Origin: Hydrogenophaga sp.
GTDB taxonomy: Bacteria; Pseudomonadota; Gammaproteobacteria; Burkholderiales; Burkholderiaceae_C
NCBI RefSeq assembly: GCF_030158645.1
Contig: NZ_JAOASO010000043.1
Span: forward strand, 1-64,000
DNA length: 64,000 nt
Direction: 5' to 3'
Shown here: piece by piece, positions 5,244 to 23,019 of the stretch
Position numbering within the stretch: position 1 is the first letter of the stretch
How the letters are laid out: each line of letters starts with the position of its first letter
Notes under the pieces: model-generated
The model's input: the letters and a program-made list of their open reading frames with translations, nothing else
The model's database searches: none
What the model was told of the DNA's origin: nothing
Made by a program: the position numbers and the translations under genes

Positions 5244-5720
5244 TCAGCCCTGGGCGGCGGCCTGGGCGTGCAGCTTGGCGGCGATGTATTCGCCGTGCGT
5301 CACGTGCAGCAATCCCGCCACCTTGCTGATCACGTGGTGCTCGTTGGCGTCGAGTTGGTTGTCGGCGAATGCCACTTCCCACATGGCTTCGACCACGCTG
5401 ATTTTTTGCGCCTGGGTGAAGCGCTCGTTCATCAGGCCGGTGAAGCGCTGGTAGTCGTAGGCGGTGCGGGCCGTCTCGTGCGCCAGTTCCATCAGGCGTT
5501 CCAGCTCGTCGTCGCTCAGGTCGAACTTGCGCCGCAGCGCGGCGATCACCGCCTCACGCTCGCTGTCCTTGAGGTCGGGCTCGGCCCGCATCACCTCCAC
5601 CAGCAGCACCGCCGTGGACAACTGCAGGGTGTGCGCCTGCTCGGCGGGCAGCTGGGCGCCAGCCGGTGCGGTGAGGCTGGCGGCGAGGTTGTCGAACAGG
5701 TCTTTGAGGTTTCGGAGCAT
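5244..5720 (-). CDS. TerB family tellurite-resistance-like protein
   Basis: LLVEVMRAEPDLKDSEREAVIAALRRKFDLSDDE...MWEVAFADNQLDANEHHVISKVAGLLHV. Confidence 0.88.
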   Translation of the reverse strand: MLRNLKDLFDNLAASLTAPAGAQLPAEQAHTLQLSTAVLLVEVMRAEPDLKDSEREAVIAALRRKFDLSDDELERLMELAHETARTAYDYQRFTGLMNERFTQAQKISVVEAMWEVAFADNQLDANEHHVISKVAGLLHVTHGEYIAAKLHAQAAAQG

Positions 5721-5754
5721 GGGCTTGGATTCACAAGGAGGGCGTGGGTGGAGC

Positions 5755-6399
5755 TCAGGCCGGTGCCGATGGTTCCCGAGCCCACACCAGCAGCAGGTTG
5801 TTGGCGGGCATGGCGTGGCGCTCGCGCAGGTGCAAACCGGCCTGCCGTGCTTCGTGTGCCACATCGCTCAGCCGGCGGATGCCCCAGTCGGGGTGGGTGT
5901 TGCGCAGGCTCTCGTCGAACGCCAGGTTGCCGGGTGAAGTGGGTACGCCGTCTTCGATGTACGGACCGTAGGTGATGAGCACGCCGCCCGGTGCCATCAC
6001 GCGCGCCGCGCCCCGCATGAGCCCCGCGCAGGCCGCCCAGGGGGCGATGTGCAGCATGTTGGCGCAATAGACCGCGTCGAAGGTGTTCCCAAACGCCTCG
6101 CCGAAGAGGTCGGCCTCGTCGGGCCACTGGTCCGAGGTCACGTCCAGCCGCAGGGGCGGCAGCACATTGGTCACACGCGCCTGCTCCGTCCAGGCGGCGA
6201 TCGTGGCCATCGCACTGGCCTGCATGTCGGTGGGTTGCCACTGCCAGCCGGGCAGACCGGCGGCAAACCACGTGGCGTGCTGGCCAGTGCCCGATGCGAT
6301 CTCCAGTGCCATGCCACGCTCGGGCAGCACCCGCTGGAGGGTTTCCAGGATCGGCTGCTTGTTGCGGTCGGCGGCTGGGCTGGCGGGCAGGGCGGTCAT
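5755..6399 (-). CDS. DUF938 domain-containing SAM-dependent methyltransferase-like protein
   Basis: NKQPILETLQRVLPERGMALEIASGTGQHATWFA...NMLHIAPWAACAGLM. Confidence 0.9.
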   Translation of the reverse strand: MTALPASPAADRNKQPILETLQRVLPERGMALEIASGTGQHATWFAAGLPGWQWQPTDMQASAMATIAAWTEQARVTNVLPPLRLDVTSDQWPDEADLFGEAFGNTFDAVYCANMLHIAPWAACAGLMRGAARVMAPGGVLITYGPYIEDGVPTSPGNLAFDESLRNTHPDWGIRRLSDVAHEARQAGLHLRERHAMPANNLLLVWAREPSAPA

Positions 6400-11543: not shown

Positions 11544-12185
11544 ATGGCCAACAAGATCCTGCTCACCGGGTTTGACGCCTTCGGCGGCGCCACGCTCAAC
11601 CCCAGCTGGCTCGCCGTGCGCGCCCTGCACGACCGGCAGATCCTCGGCCACACGGTGGTGGCCGCGCAGCTGCCCACGGTGTTCGATGCTTCGTTGACTG
11701 CACTGAACGCGCTGCTGACGCAGCACCGGCCTGCGCTCGTCATCTGCGTGGGCCAGGCTGGTGGGCGCAGCGCAATCTCGCTGGAGCGCGTGGCCATCAA
11801 CGTGAACGACGCGCCCATCGCCGACAACGCAGGCGGTCAACCGGTGGACACACCGGTGAAGCCCGGCGCCCCGGCGGCCTACTTCACCAGTCTGCCCATC
11901 AAGGCCATGCTGGCCGCGCTGCAAGCCGACGGCGTGGCCGCCGAGGTGTCGCAAACCGCCGGCACCTTCGTCTGCAACCACGTGTTTTACGGGCTCATGC
12001 ACGCCCTGGCCACACGACGCGAACTGAAGCACACGCGCGGGGGGTTCATCCACGTGCCCTGGCTGCCCGAGCAAGGCACACCCGGCATGGCGCTGGACGA
12101 CATCGTGCGCGGCCTGCGGCTCGCATTGCGCTGCGCCCTGCAGGTGGACAAAGACGCCGCGCTGGGCGCCGGTGCCACGAACTGA
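11544..12185 (+). CDS. pcp: Pyroglutamyl-peptidase I
   Basis: ILLTGFDAFGGATLNPSW; VGQAGGRSAISLERVAIN; TAGTFVCNHVFYGLMH; FIHVPWLPEQ. Confidence 0.93.
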   Translation: MANKILLTGFDAFGGATLNPSWLAVRALHDRQILGHTVVAAQLPTVFDASLTALNALLTQHRPALVICVGQAGGRSAISLERVAINVNDAPIADNAGGQPVDTPVKPGAPAAYFTSLPIKAMLAALQADGVAAEVSQTAGTFVCNHVFYGLMHALATRRELKHTRGGFIHVPWLPEQGTPGMALDDIVRGLRLALRCALQVDKDAALGAGATN

Positions 12186-12198
12186 AGCCGCCGCAGCC

Positions 12199-12525
12199 TC
12201 AGGCCTGCCAGACCCCGAAGCCCGCCGAGCGCAGGTCGATGCCGATCTCGATCTCCTTCTCCACCGCGTCGTCGTACTGCATCGGGTTGAAGCCCTCGTA
12301 CAGATCGGGCAGCAGCCGCAGCCCGTACTTCATCACATACGCATTCGACTGAATCCCCGCCTTGTGCTTGTCGAACCGCACGTCCGGGTCCAGCCCGGTC
12401 ATGCCCACGTACACACAGGGCTTGCCGTCGATGTAGCCCGGGTTGTTCTTGCGAAAGCGCGGTTCCAGCAGCACGTCGTTGTGCAGCTCGATGACGTAGA
12501 CGTGGTGGTTGGGGCGGCGGGCCAT
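12199..12525 (-). CDS. GIY-YIG nuclease-like small protein
   Basis: HHVYVIEL...PCVYVGMTGLDPDVRFDKHKAG: GIY-like and YIG-like strands with following R/H helix. ATG directly follows TAG stop of upstream HEPN gene. Confidence 0.65.
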   Translation of the reverse strand: MARRPNHHVYVIELHNDVLLEPRFRKNNPGYIDGKPCVYVGMTGLDPDVRFDKHKAGIQSNAYVMKYGLRLLPDLYEGFNPMQYDDAVEKEIEIGIDLRSAGFGVWQA

Positions 12526-12933
12526 CTACGCGTTCAAGGCCTTTACAACCTGCTCTGCTGCCGTGATCAGATCGGTCACCAAGCGTTCGTCCACTTCCAT
12601 CAACCCCTCGTACTCGCCGAGGTTGCGTTTGTTGTGGCAAAGGTCCAGCACGCGCCACACCGCTGGCCCCAAACCCAGCGTGTGAGGCAGCACCTGAAAG
12701 ACGATGTAGCGATTACTCGCTCGGTAGCCTTTGCAGCGCAATGCCGCCAAGCAAAGGGCGTGGGCAGCGTTGTAGGCGAGGTCGAAACGACTTTCCAGCG
12801 CCAGCGAGACGTTGCGCGCATCGGCCAACCGTGCTTTTCCGGTGCGGATCAAGCCCGCTGTTTCGCTGTCATCCGGTGCCTCGGCTTTCAAGGCCTTGCC
12901 GGGACCGCTCAAGTTTTCAAGTGCTTGTGTCAT
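12526..12933 (-). CDS. HEPN domain protein (putative partner of MNT nucleotidyltransferase)
   Basis: Helical ALESRFDLAYNAAHALCLAALRCKGYR...RVLDLCHNKRNLGEYE pattern of HEPN; overlaps the MNT gene by 17 nt. Confidence 0.75.
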   Translation of the reverse strand: MTQALENLSGPGKALKAEAPDDSETAGLIRTGKARLADARNVSLALESRFDLAYNAAHALCLAALRCKGYRASNRYIVFQVLPHTLGLGPAVWRVLDLCHNKRNLGEYEGLMEVDERLVTDLITAAEQVVKALNA

Positions 12934-13534
12934 GGGTCGGCTCCTCCTCGCCGATCAGCCATATCTTGGGCTGTTGCATCACACGTGTGACGAACGCATT
13001 GTCTTGGGCGACACGCCGCTCAAACTCCTCGGGGGTATAGATCGTGGGGTTCACCGTGCGCCCCAGCGTGTGGGCTGCGGCCTCCAATGCGCCAAACACT
13101 TCCCCGTAGCGCAGACTGGGACTCACGATCAACAGGTCCACGTCGCTTTGTGCCGTGTCTTGCTGGCTGGCCATGGAACCAAACACAAAAGCCCGTTGGA
13201 TCGCCGGCGCCATGGGCGCCAGAGCGGCGCGCAACACATCGCCCAGCCCCATGGTCTTGAGCACCAGCCCTCGCAGCTCGGCAAATACCGGAGAAGCCGC
13301 GTTGGCCTGGTAGTGCTTCTGGTTGCCCTGTTTCCGCACGGTGATGAGGCCTGCGTCGCACAGCCCCGCTAGCTCGCGCTGTACTGCGCCCGTGCCGGAT
13401 TGAGCCATCGCGATCAATTCATTGGCGTAAAAACTTCGGTCGGGCGTGCCAAACAGGACGGCCAATACCCGTTGCCGGACCTTGGGGAACAAGGCGTCGG
13501 CTGTGCCGGAGAGGAGCGGTGCGTTTGTATTCAT
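12917..13534 (-). CDS. HTH-fused MNT-type nucleotidyltransferase (putative antitoxin); alternative start at 13597
   Basis: N-terminal winged HTH (RQRVLAVLFGTPDRSFYANELIAMAQSGTGAVQRELAGLCDAGLITVRKQGNQKHYQAN) plus GS-x10-DxD (GSMASQQDTAQSDVD). Confidence 0.85.
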   Translation of the reverse strand: MNTNAPLLSGTADALFPKVRQRVLAVLFGTPDRSFYANELIAMAQSGTGAVQRELAGLCDAGLITVRKQGNQKHYQANAASPVFAELRGLVLKTMGLGDVLRAALAPMAPAIQRAFVFGSMASQQDTAQSDVDLLIVSPSLRYGEVFGALEAAAHTLGRTVNPTIYTPEEFERRVAQDNAFVTRVMQQPKIWLIGEEEPTHDTST

Positions 13535-13547
13535 ACCCAAATTGGGT
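13535..13547. promoter_or_regulatory. Palindrome ACCCAA-A-TTGGGT abutting the MNT start codon; candidate operator
   Basis: Perfect 6-bp dyad with 1-nt centre directly next to ATG at 13534; TATTAT (minus strand) at 13551-13556 immediately upstream. Confidence 0.5.
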
Positions 13548-13603
13548 CCAATAATACCTTGTTTGGGGTTTATCGGTGCGGCAAAACATCCGGCCACACG
13601 AGC

Positions 13604-15557: not shown

Positions 15558-15615
15558 GCGTGGCCAGAGCCGTTTCCCGCACGTCCCACAGGAAGGCGCG
15601 CGGATCACGCTGCAT
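15558..15615 (-). pseudogene. Truncated HEPN (DUF86/HepT-like) N-terminus downstream of orphan MNT
   Basis: ATG overlapping MNT stop encodes MQRDPRAFLWDVRETALAT, resembling DUF86 N-termini, then runs into the ridA 3' end without the rest of the domain. Confidence 0.5.
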
Positions 15616-15913
15616 AGATGGCTTCGCGATGGCGGTTGATGTTGGCCAGCACGTATGGATTGCGCACCGCGCCGGGTTCGACCAAGTCCACACCCCGGCC
15701 GAGCAATTGCTCCAGATCTGACTTGGCGCCAAAGAAGGAATTCAGATCGGGGTAGACGCCCGGGGCGAACTCCACCAGAAAGTCCGCGTCGCTGCTGTCG
15801 GGGTTGAAGTCATCGGCACGCGCAGCCGAGCCGAACACTTCCAGCCGGCGAATGCCGTGGCGCTGGCAGATGGCAGCGATGCCTGAGCGGTGTTGGGCGA
15901 TGGCGGGATGCAT
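15605..15913 (-). CDS. MNT nucleotidyltransferase (MntA-like antitoxin), orphan
   Basis: GIRRLEVFGSAARADDFNPDSSDADFLVEFAPG minimal NTase motif; DLVEPGAVRNPYVLANINRHREAIYAA C-terminus. Confidence 0.85.
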   Translation of the reverse strand: MHPAIAQHRSGIAAICQRHGIRRLEVFGSAARADDFNPDSSDADFLVEFAPGVYPDLNSFFGAKSDLEQLLGRGVDLVEPGAVRNPYVLANINRHREAIYAA

Positions 15914-16522: not shown

Positions 16523-18343
16523 ATGGCCACACTCATACCAGCACTCGGCGCTTGTCTTTCGCGCATGACCAGCGGAGAAAGACGGCTCGCCGAACGTCTG
16601 GAGCAAAAGCTCGAAGACGACTACCTGCTCTGGTACGACGTGCCCGTCGGCCCCAAACAATCGCACCCCGACTTTGTGATCCTGCATCCGCGCCGCGGGC
16701 TGCTGATTCTGGAAACCAAAGACTGGAAGCTGGAGACCATCAAGAACGCCACGCGCCAAGCCTGGGAAATCATTCCTGACGGGCATGTGAAGGTGGTCAT
16801 CAACCCGCTGGCACAGGCGCGGCATTGCGCCATTCAAGTGGTCAACGCGCTGGAGCGCGACGAACAGCTGGTGCAGCCCAGCGGCCCCCACCAGGGCAAG
16901 CTGGCTTTTCCGTGGGGCCACGGCGTGGTGTTCACCCGCATCACGCGCAGACAGTTTGAAATGGCCGGGCTGGGTGAGGCCATCGAGCCGCATTACGTCA
17001 TCTGCTCCGACGAGATGACCGAGTCCACCGACCCGGAGCAGTTTCAGCAACGCCTGTGGAACATGTTTCCGCACGCGTTTGGCAACGTCATGTCGCTGCC
17101 GCAGCTCGACCGCGTGCGCTGGATCATGTTTCCCGAGGTGCGCGTGCAGGTGCAAGGCGCCCTGTTTGACGACAGCGACGAAGCCGCAGAAATGCCCAGC
17201 GTCATGCGGGTGATGGACATCCAGCAGGAGCAGCTGGCCCGCAGCCTGGGCGACGGGCACCGCGTGATTCACGGTGTGGCCGGCTCGGGCAAGACCATGC
17301 TGCTGGGCTACCGCGCCGAGCACCTGGCCAAGGCCCACACCGCTGCGAGCAAACCCATCCTCATGCTTTGCTACAACGAGCCGCTGGCCAAGCAGCTCGC
17401 CCGCGTGATGACCGCCAAAGGCATTGCCGACCGCGTGCACGCCGTGCACTTTCACAAGTGGTGCCGCGACCAGCTGGTGGCCTTTGGCCAGACCCTGCCC
17501 GACCCCCGCCTACCCGTGGGCGCCAAGATGGCCGACATGGTGCAACGCGTGATCCACGGTGTGGACCGCCAGCAGATTCCGAGTGGGCAATACCAGGCCG
17601 TGCTCATTGACGAAGGCCACGACTTCGCGCCCGAGTGGCTCAGGCTCATCACCCAGATGGTGGACCCGGCCACCAACAGCCTGCTGGTGCTGTACGACGA
17701 CGCGCAGAGCATTTACGAGCGCAGCCGGAGCAAGCAGTTCAGCTTCAAGAGCGTGGGCATTCAGGCGCAGGGGCGCACCACCATCCTCAAGATCAACTAC
17801 CGCAACACGCGGCAGATCTTGCAAACCGCCAGCCTCGTGGCCGCCGATTTGCTGACCGCCGAGGACAAGGACGAAGACGGCATCCCCATGCTCAAGCCCG
17901 TGAGCTGCGGGCGCGACGGCGAAGCGCCGCTCATCATCCGCCTGCCCAGCCTGCGGGCCGAAGCCACGCGCGTGGCCGAGCTGCTGGGTGCCGCCCACCA
18001 GGAAGGCCACGCCTGGGGCGACATGGCCATCATCTGCCGGCACTACAGCGAGATGGACGAATGCGCCGGCGTGCTGCGCCAGCGCGGCCTGCCGCACCAG
18101 GTGCGCAAAGGCGCGGGCAGCTTCGACCCCGCCGCCGACACCATCAAGGTGCTGACCATGCACGCCAGCAAAGGGCTGGAGTTCCCGGTGGTGGCGCTGG
18201 TGGGCGCGGGCCACATGCCCGCGAAGGGCGAAGACGAGCGCGAAGAAGCGAAGCTGTTTTATGTGGGGGCTACGCGGGCCACGCATCGGTTGATCATCGG
18301 GATGGGTGGGGAAGGGCGGTTCGGGCAGAGGCTGGCTACTTGA
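16523..18343 (+). CDS. NERD domain-containing SF1 (UvrD-like) helicase
   Basis: NERD PD-ExK (HPDFVIL...LLILETKDW); Walker A GVAGSGKTML; IDEGHDF; DDAQSIY; NYRNTRQI; TMHASKGLEF; FYVGATRATHRL. Confidence 0.9.
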   Translation: MATLIPALGACLSRMTSGERRLAERLEQKLEDDYLLWYDVPVGPKQSHPDFVILHPRRGLLILETKDWKLETIKNATRQAWEIIPDGHVKVVINPLAQARHCAIQVVNALERDEQLVQPSGPHQGKLAFPWGHGVVFTRITRRQFEMAGLGEAIEPHYVICSDEMTESTDPEQFQQRLWNMFPHAFGNVMSLPQLDRVRWIMFPEVRVQVQGALFDDSDEAAEMPSVMRVMDIQQEQLARSLGDGHRVIHGVAGSGKTMLLGYRAEHLAKAHTAASKPILMLCYNEPLAKQLARVMTAKGIADRVHAVHFHKWCRDQLVAFGQTLPDPRLPVGAKMADMVQRVIHGVDRQQIPSGQYQAVLIDEGHDFAPEWLRLITQMVDPATNSLLVLYDDAQSIYERSRSKQFSFKSVGIQAQGRTTILKINYRNTRQILQTASLVAADLLTAEDKDEDGIPMLKPVSCGRDGEAPLIIRLPSLRAEATRVAELLGAAHQEGHAWGDMAIICRHYSEMDECAGVLRQRGLPHQVRKGAGSFDPAADTIKVLTMHASKGLEFPVVALVGAGHMPAKGEDEREEAKLFYVGATRATHRLIIGMGGEGRFGQRLAT

Positions 18344-18557: not shown

Positions 18558-21026
18558 CTAATGCTTCTTCCCTGAGCTAGGAAGCTGGCGTTCAAGTCCA
18601 TCGCAGCATTGCTGCGTGAAGAAGAGTCGATTTTCTGCGAGTATGTTCCTAGCATTGTCGAACTGTTGTCGTGAGCAAAAGTGTTCAAAGTCAACGCGTG
18701 CCAATTCTATTTTGGCTAGTGGGAATTTCTTTTCACGAAGAGTCTTGGATATTTCACCGTGAAGCTCATTAAACTGCAGGTCTTTCCCCTTTAAAGAGAG
18801 CATGCTAAGAAGAGTAAGCTTCACTGCGATTGGCAAGTTTTTTCGAGTGGAGAAAAGCTCTTGAAGGGAGGTTAAATCATTCTCAATTATGACTTCTCTC
18901 ATTTTTTCTCTTGCAAAATAGAAAGACGTCCCCTCGCGCTCATCGGCTGTTCTAAGTTGATCAAGGCAGCTATCAATTTCGGACACCGAAGCGCCGCGCC
19001 GCTCAGTTTTAAATCTTTCCAGCAGTATCATTGCCAAGATATCGAGTACATAAGGATTTCCAAAGGCAAGATCATGGGCCTTGGTTACGCAGTTGTATGC
19101 CTCGTCGAAGCTTCTCTCAAATGCGTAGATGTACGCGAGTTCACGGTATACATGGGAATCAGCATATCTATCTTGGCGGATTCTTTTGTACCATTCCAAA
19201 GCGCTCCGGAGATTTCCTTTTAAGCGCTCCTTTAAGCCGTTCCCAAAATTGTAAATCGCGTCTGATTGAGGCGATTTTTTGATGTTTAAATACTCTTTGG
19301 TGAAGTATTTGAACGAATCTTCATTTCCGGACCTTACAGAAGAAAGGCCAATTAATCTCCAGGCCTCTCTTTTGCCATTTTCACTTAGCTTTTCTGATTG
19401 CATATATGCATCTTTAGCTAGTCTCAATGAAGAGTTGTAGTCTTGAGCGTCGTATCGACGCTTTGCAGCGCGAATTTGTTGGCTTGGCATTACCAAGTTC
19501 GACAAATACCCTGAGATAGGGGTGCCGTCAAGAATGTGTGCAACTATACGAGCATCTAAGAGTTGAATTGAGAGGTAACTCTTGTCTTCAATTTTGTCGA
19601 ATTCTTCGAGAAGTGATTTTCGAAAGGGGGCGAGAGCTGCTCTATGTTTGTTGGCAAGATTTTCAGCAACTCTTTGAATGTAGCTCACAAGCGAATAATC
19701 TGATCCAGCTCGGATTAGTAGGCCTGCATCAAGCAGCGCTTCCGTGGCATCTTCGAAGGCCGGCCAGTCATTGAGAATGTTTTGAATTTCCCCGTAGGAA
19801 AGAATATTCGTTTCTGAGTAAAGTGCTACAGCCATTTCTCGATCTAAACTGCCGTCGACGACATCATTGAGGATTAGCTGAACTTGTTCGTTAATTAGTT
19901 TAACAATATTGTTGTGGGTTCTGTTCGGCTTATATTGAGGATTTCTTTTGAGGTAGTTGGCAACCAAGGTAATAAGTCCAGGGTGGCCTGATATGCTGGT
20001 TTCAATTCTGCTTTGCTCGTCCTTGCTTGGAATTGAAATGCCATGTTTTTTAATCAATATCCTAAACAAGAAGGTTGACCACTTTTCTTCAAGCGGCTCA
20101 ATTGTCAAGAACAGCCCATTGGTGAGGCTGTGGCCATTCAAGAAGCGCTGAGATACAAACCAGACGTATGGGTAATCTGCGGGTTCAAGGTATTTTGTTA
20201 GGTTTGCAAACCATGACTGCGGCTTTCCCTCCTCAGTTAAAGCTGCAGTGCCTAGGTTGATGACAACCACTTGATTAAATGATGTAGAGATTTCTTTTAG
20301 CAGTTTTGCCAGCTCGCGCGTGCGAAGCAGTGGGCTAAGTGCAATATATCTATCTAATTCAATTTTGTACTCATTTGCTCTCCAGTTTGCGCTGTAAGCA
20401 AGTGCACGGCGATATATATCGAATACATCGTCTACTTGGGCAACAGCTATCTCTATTTTATGGGTGGAAATCTGTGGGTAATATGACTGATATACTTTTG
20501 ATGCAAGCGTTCTTCTGCCAATTCCATTTGGCCCAGAGAGATATAGATAGCTGACTCCATTTTCAAGTTCAGATAGGGAGTCAACTATTTTTCTCTCATC
20601 TTCACTTCGTCCATGACATTCAAATTGAGTATTTGTCGAGTCATTTATTTCGTTGAGCAACCGAAGGGCAACGTGTTTGGGTGAGGGTGGGCAAGATACT
20701 AGATAGCGCCCCAACCAAGCCGGCAGAACGTTCCATTTTGTGTCATCTAATTGGAAAACTAGAAACTTCCGAATTTTCCACTTCGTTCGGAGTTCAAGAG
20801 CTAAATCAAGTTCGCCATTTACCCAGTTCGAACTAATTGACGATGCCGATAGAAATAGGGCATAGATCTGACAGTCCTCTATTCCCTCTAAAATCTGTGT
20901 TGGAAGATCGCCGTTTTTCTCGAACGTCTTAATGTCGTAGACGCATCGTCCCGCGCCTAATTCTTCATAGACCTTTTCGACAAAATCTTTGTCAAATGAG
21001 CTGTGTGAAAGAAAAACTTTTGACAT
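18558..21026 (-). CDS. TIR domain / STAND-like P-loop / TPR-like repeat protein (putative antiphage effector)
   Basis: N-terminal TIR (MSKVFLSHSSFDKDFVEKVYEEL...FLSASSISSNWVNGELDLAL); P-loop-like GPNGIGRRTLA; C-terminal TPR-like helices. Strong SD AGGAGG 6 nt upstream of ATG at 21026. AT-rich. Confidence 0.85.
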   Translation of the reverse strand: MSKVFLSHSSFDKDFVEKVYEELGAGRCVYDIKTFEKNGDLPTQILEGIEDCQIYALFLSASSISSNWVNGELDLALELRTKWKIRKFLVFQLDDTKWNVLPAWLGRYLVSCPPSPKHVALRLLNEINDSTNTQFECHGRSEDERKIVDSLSELENGVSYLYLSGPNGIGRRTLASKVYQSYYPQISTHKIEIAVAQVDDVFDIYRRALAYSANWRANEYKIELDRYIALSPLLRTRELAKLLKEISTSFNQVVVINLGTAALTEEGKPQSWFANLTKYLEPADYPYVWFVSQRFLNGHSLTNGLFLTIEPLEEKWSTFLFRILIKKHGISIPSKDEQSRIETSISGHPGLITLVANYLKRNPQYKPNRTHNNIVKLINEQVQLILNDVVDGSLDREMAVALYSETNILSYGEIQNILNDWPAFEDATEALLDAGLLIRAGSDYSLVSYIQRVAENLANKHRAALAPFRKSLLEEFDKIEDKSYLSIQLLDARIVAHILDGTPISGYLSNLVMPSQQIRAAKRRYDAQDYNSSLRLAKDAYMQSEKLSENGKREAWRLIGLSSVRSGNEDSFKYFTKEYLNIKKSPQSDAIYNFGNGLKERLKGNLRSALEWYKRIRQDRYADSHVYRELAYIYAFERSFDEAYNCVTKAHDLAFGNPYVLDILAMILLERFKTERRGASVSEIDSCLDQLRTADEREGTSFYFAREKMREVIIENDLTSLQELFSTRKNLPIAVKLTLLSMLSLKGKDLQFNELHGEISKTLREKKFPLAKIELARVDFEHFCSRQQFDNARNILAENRLFFTQQCCDGLERQLPSSGKKH

Positions 21027-21177
21027 ATCTATCCTCCTGAATTTTTGATTGGGAATGCTGTTCTTGGCTTCCACGCCTTGTGACTCATGGTGAAAAGGTA
21101 TTGCTAGTTCTTTGCGCGTGAGTAATTAATGCATTTCTTGAATCTCTGTATCCCAGATAAAGGTGGTTTATCCCATG

Positions 21178-23019
<1,842 letters not shown>

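Follow-up and report, generated by a model that had tools for sequence, protein, structure and literature searches.

The window, a 64,000-nucleotide stretch of contig NZ_JAOASO010000043.1 from Hydrogenophaga sp., carries three co-directional genes that encode, from 5' to 3', a nucleotidyltransferase with an N-terminal winged HTH (MNT), a HEPN-fold protein and a small GIY-YIG-like protein (GIY; Table 1). The coordinates and junctions given in a preliminary description were confirmed, including the 17-nt overlap of MNT and HEPN and the TAGATG junction, in which the TAG stop of HEPN (12526-12528) abuts the ATG of GIY (12523-12525). Relative to the nearest relative, dN/dS is about 0.13-0.15 for all three genes, and this purifying selection indicates that they are real genes. 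On inspection of the sequence, a good Shine-Dalgarno is absent upstream of the GIY start, suggesting that GIY translation is probably coupled to that of HEPN. The coupled order MNT-HEPN-GIY was found to recur, being present in three genomes (the window genome, G000; G001; and the genome of locus L130), with a remnant in G010. G001 and the G010 remnant share the TAGATG junction; L130 has TGATG.

Table 1 Features of the locus in the window and related orphan operators.
Feature	Position	Strand	Remarks
wHTH-MNT (PDC-M05A)	12917-13534	-	205 aa; predicted autorepressor and adenylyltransferase antitoxin
HEPN-fold protein (PDC-M05B)	12526-12933	-	135 aa; predicted toxin/effector
GIY-YIG-like gene, small single-domain	12199-12525	-	108 aa; near-core in genus, probably outside PDC-M05
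MNT/HEPN overlap, 17 nt	12917-12933	-	
TAGATG junction, HEPN stop/GIY start	12523-12528	-	
Double palindrome ACCCNNNNTGGGT-N8-ACCCNNNNTGGGT, 21 bp repeat	13535-13568	.	abuts MNT start codon
Putative -10 box TATTAT	13551-13556	-	5/6 to TATAAT; lies between palindromes
pcp (pyroglutamyl peptidase)	11544-12185	+	Peptidase_C15 5e-70; convergent GIY neighbour in most relatives
PDC-S09 nucleotidyltransferase	15605-15913	-	second, stand-alone MNT protein
NERD-UvrD helicase	16529-18343	+	PADLOC C3a187, 8e-170, very strong; recurs in relatives' interval
TIR protein	18558-21074	-	838 aa, N-terminal TIR; weak PADLOC TIR-NLR match; adjoins glnS
glnS	21178-23019	-	anchor of variable interval holding PDC-M05
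Orphan PDC-M05-type double operators before GIY	L074:9973-10006; L072:10293-10326; L123 (G037); L124 (G027)		

The first two genes were recognised by PADLOC models, bearing out the claim of an MNT-HEPN pair. The first protein matches PDC-M05A at 5.6e-84 (residues 11-201, profile positions 6-196 of 201) and the HEPN protein matches PDC-M05B at 6e-63 (profile positions 1-134 of 141). On these profile matches, 12526-13534 is a PDC-M05 pair. The MNT protein (hereafter M05A) consists of an N-terminal HTH (residues 14-79) and an NTP_transf_2 domain (residues 110-173), with an exact GSX10DXD catalytic motif (G119 S120 ... D131 x D133) that is conserved in relatives. The wHTH-fused MNT had been regarded as a non-standard architecture; the HTH, however, already lies within the PDC-M05A model, by which the HTH-fused MNT is the standard form of PDC-M05A. 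Among 80 related loci, picked by similarity to the window HEPN and taxonomically biased to Comamonadaceae, nearly all have MNT directly 5' of HEPN, and the window shows the same A-B order. The locus thus resembles PDC-M05 in the nearly full-length match of both genes, in their order and in the HTH fusion, and differs in that a coupled GIY-YIG-like gene follows. In the passages that name it, PDC-M05 is a nucleotidyltransferase and HEPN pair with an unconfirmed antiviral role (PMC12988326), of which PDC-M05A was upregulated in phage-infected Burkholderia cenocepacia K56-2 (PMC12584637). We consider the pair to represent a known kind of candidate phage-defence system, with a predicted role in defence. 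One related locus contains tandem M05 copies (L138:2334-3104 and 5342-6393), the HEPN of the first being truncated.

We also compared the pair with the type VII toxin-antitoxin (TA) system HepT-MntA (Shewanella SO_3166/SO_3165; Legionella and related HEPN-MNT pairs). Both combine a GSX10DXD MNT with an adjacent HEPN-fold partner, and MntA-HepT entries are found among the Foldseek matches. In contrast, M05A has an extra wHTH and only weakly matches the MntA NCBIfam equivalog (26.3 bits, below the cutoff of 60), while M05B presents RX4Y as opposed to RX4HXY and has no sequence match to this system.

The HEPN protein (M05B) has no match in Pfam, NCBIfam or PHROG, and sequence searches of the PDB yielded nothing useful. 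An AF2 model of M05B (pLDDT 94) gave the HEPN-domain entry 2hsb as best Foldseek match (probability 1.00, TM 0.69-0.73, with a weak E-value of 3e-3), followed by, among the next matches, HepT toxins in MntA-HepT complexes with E-values that are weak, 3e-3 at best. According to this model, M05B has a HEPN fold. An alignment of 37 M05B proteins reveals an invariant R103-N104-x3-Y108-x-G110 (RX4Y); the canonical RX4-6H(XY) is absent at this conserved RN motif in all 37, with Tyr108 found instead. A literal R94-x5-H100 does occur in M05B and is conserved in close relatives only, H100 being lost in distant members. A survey of the HEPN superfamily links RX4-6H with RNase activity, and reports its entire or partial loss in HEPN domains fused to nucleotidyltransferases, which were taken as substrate-binding domains (PMC3710099). 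With an invariant RX4Y instead of RX4-6H, RNase activity of M05B is not assured and RNase catalysis is regarded as uncertain, flagging the PDC-M05 HEPN as a protein without the usual catalytic histidine.

Nucleotidyltransferases act as toxins in other TA systems, and the roles within the pair could be altered, with the MNT enzyme as the toxin and M05B, not an RNase toxin, restraining it or presenting its substrate. The replacement of RX4-6H by the invariant R103-N104-x3-Y108, the confinement of R94-x5-H100 to close relatives and the motif loss in nucleotidyltransferase-fused HEPN domains would fit such an assignment. We nevertheless consider it unlikely, as it is the MNT protein that carries the DNA-binding autorepressor domain, a typical antitoxin trait.

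Upstream of MNT, two ACCCNNNNTGGGT palindromes are located 21 bp apart. With up to 5 of 18 mismatches allowed, this arrangement occurs at 101 of 105 M05 loci (non-redundant set, MNT identity of 50% or more) and in 16 of 2480 shuffled sequences. A -10-like hexamer, TATnAT, separates the palindromes when the spacer consensus ATnATcAa is read from the shared T, and 63 of 104 M05 operators have 5-6 of 6 -10 matches at this position. A sigma70 consensus scan identified no -35/-10 pair; the -10 box is proposed because the hexamer separating the palindromes is conserved. We dismissed a genome-wide repeat as the origin of the signal, as a genus-wide pattern search located palindromic double sites at M05 or GIY loci only. 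The disposition of double palindromes around a -10-like hexamer leads us to predict that M05A autorepresses through its wHTH and the double operator. This conserved M05 operator appears new here, as it was not found in the passages naming PDC-M05 (PMC12988326, PMC12584637), and provides a concrete candidate regulatory site for PDC-M05, a putative defence pair that is widespread and has a predicted mechanism.

The third gene encodes a member of a compact, strongly conserved family that is present in 45 of 60 Hydrogenophaga genomes (sharing 73-93% identity with the window protein) and also occurs in other families of the order. Residues Y10, Y39-V-G41, R50, H54 and E91 are invariant across 28 relatives. 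The window protein matches PF01541 at 0.0088 and 16.8 bits, under the gathering score of 22.6, and 27 of the 28 relatives match PF01541 alone, again weakly (best 2.7e-4). Foldseek against the PDB gave a best E-value of 1.0, with no GIY-YIG entry among the 50 matches listed; the secondary-structure order is compatible with GIY-YIG. The protein shares with small single-domain GIY-YIG proteins the strand/helix order and the order of the invariant Y, Y, R, H and E, and differs from these in scoring below the Pfam gathering score and in an insertion that separates strands 1 and 2. It constitutes a Burkholderiales family of its own, for which functional annotation was looked for and none found.

The suggestion that this nuclease-like protein is a third component of the system fared less well. 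A strong M05B match was found in 11 of the 60 genus genomes, as opposed to 45 for GIY, and co-occurrence of the two is not significant either within the genus (p=0.44) or order-wide (13 observed versus 8.7 expected, p=0.067). The trio does recur elsewhere, so that it is not the case that GIY never co-occurs with the pair, but the association falls short of significance. In most relatives GIY lacks an adjacent M05 and is often convergent with pcp; conversely, an adjacent GIY is missing from most M05 loci, with GIY a neighbour in about 9-10 of the 80. Elsewhere GIY is placed on the other side of the pair (GIY-MNT-HEPN, in G055 and Acidovorax Leaf78) or kilobases away from it (G052, G034, G024 and G049). 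The three pairs with the order MNT-HEPN-GIY form one subclade in a quick M05 tree (96 SH-aLRT), from which a single origin of the arrangement is probable. Counting the two genomes with reverse order, GIY directly adjoins M05 more often than expected from chance placement, and the adjacency may confer some functional benefit. An obligate partnership was rejected: GIY is near-core and mostly found without M05, is kept when M05 is deleted and shows no significant co-occurrence. GIY is thus probably a housekeeping-type gene in its own right that persists after the pair is lost, and not a PDC-M05 component, which would remove a false three-gene system. A literature search combining HEPN, MNT, GIY-YIG and toxin returned no paper.

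When all ORFs in the 80 M05 loci were clustered, glnS emerged as the commonest M05 neighbour (23/80 loci), ahead of GIY. The region between glnS and pcp/rsu is occupied by variable genes, comprising TIR, NERD-UvrD, PDC-S09, M05 and GIY; no HEPN partner gene was noticed beside the PDC-S09 nucleotidyltransferase. The glnS-linked pairs are located in one 49-row Comamonadaceae clade of the quick M05 tree. On gene content, a glnS-linked variable interval rich in defence candidates houses both M05 and GIY, and their proximity can be attributed to this shared residence. The data draw attention to this interval of Comamonadaceae as defence-rich and linked to glnS; a literature search for a glnS defence hotspot returned no paper containing glnS.

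Comparison with related genomes reveals scars of the pair. In G014, G032, G037 and G027 the double operator is located just upstream of GIY, and MNT-HEPN is absent there. In G010, HEPN residues 98-135 alone remain, followed by TAGATG, whereas G050 has an operator together with a fragment of MNT, about 1 kb before GIY. M05A is absent from G014, G032, G037 and G010, while G027 has a diverged M05A on another contig. G027 and G458 (which contains L130, where the arrangement is intact) are sister genomes, and G010, G014 and G032 belong to the same clade as G000/G001, all seven genomes of which keep GIY and two the intact pair. These remnants and operator-only sites, which quick trees place in relatives of intact genomes, support loss of M05 with retention of GIY; the genome set includes many MAGs, among them fragmented or contaminated ones (glnS is present in several copies in G014). 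In the operator-only genomes the palindromes are kept, although the -10-like hexamer matches less well (4, 3, 2 and 3 of 6); intact G001 also has just 4 of 6, making -10 loss at most a possible mark of these genomes.

The operator could alternatively be the ancestral promoter of GIY itself, with M05 inserted between promoter and gene. Four genomes that lack M05 at this site have it before GIY, and G014 and G032 keep an apparent native GIY leader after it. However, nearly all close M05A genes have the operator, irrespective of their location, most GIY genes are not preceded by it, the operator-only G014, G032 and G027 are relatives of genomes with an intact or remnant pair, and the sequences at operator-only sites are similar to the window/G001 type. 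We regard this origin as highly improbable.

Retention of the operator before GIY after MNT-HEPN loss would also be expected of a true three-gene module, in which M05A controls a GIY-YIG nuclease as a second, DNA-cleaving effector together with the HEPN effector. The abutting or overlapping junctions in three genomes, the single M05 subclade of GIY-adjacent pairs, purifying selection on all three genes and the presence of a different GIY-YIG-type protein (PDC-S14) directly 3' of HEPN in L151 and L158 agree with such a module. It is in conflict with a near-core GIY found without M05, with the many M05 loci without an adjacent GIY, with the retention of GIY in all seven G000-clade genomes as against two intact pairs, and with the lack of significant co-occurrence order-wide, and we judge it quite unlikely. 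Very unlikely, too, is a version in which M05A represses an operon that releases HEPN effector and GIY nuclease together, leaving the operator before GIY as a functional relic.

The locus is therefore most likely best explained by an operator-controlled PDC-M05 pair beside an independent, resident GIY. The M05A wHTH would bind the two palindromes flanking the -10 region and repress the operon, while the MNT domain, by analogy with HepT-MntA (PMC7641770), would nucleotidylate M05B and keep it silent. Failure of this control, for example upon infection, would then allow M05B to act on the cell. In one sub-lineage, the M05 pair would have been placed directly upstream of the resident GIY, which is here probably expressed from the M05 promoter through predicted co-transcription and translational coupling. 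The presence of GIY on the same transcript would probably be a consequence of position, as opposed to shared function.

Other proteins occupy similar positions. PDC-S14-type proteins (GIY-YIG-like by eye, with DUF4357) are encoded directly 3' of HEPN at L158:6405-7289 and L151:5783-6649. Like GIY, PDC-S14 is found beside M05 in glnS regions, but represents a separate family of 290 aa that is distinct from the window GIY protein. Further members are located near M05 or glnS in L127, L138, L144, L159 and L166, with diverged forms in L188 and L193. In L002 (G031), at about 900-1500, a gene that by eye resembles an AbiEii-type nucleotidyltransferase lies directly upstream of GIY, another TA-like gene in the same slot.
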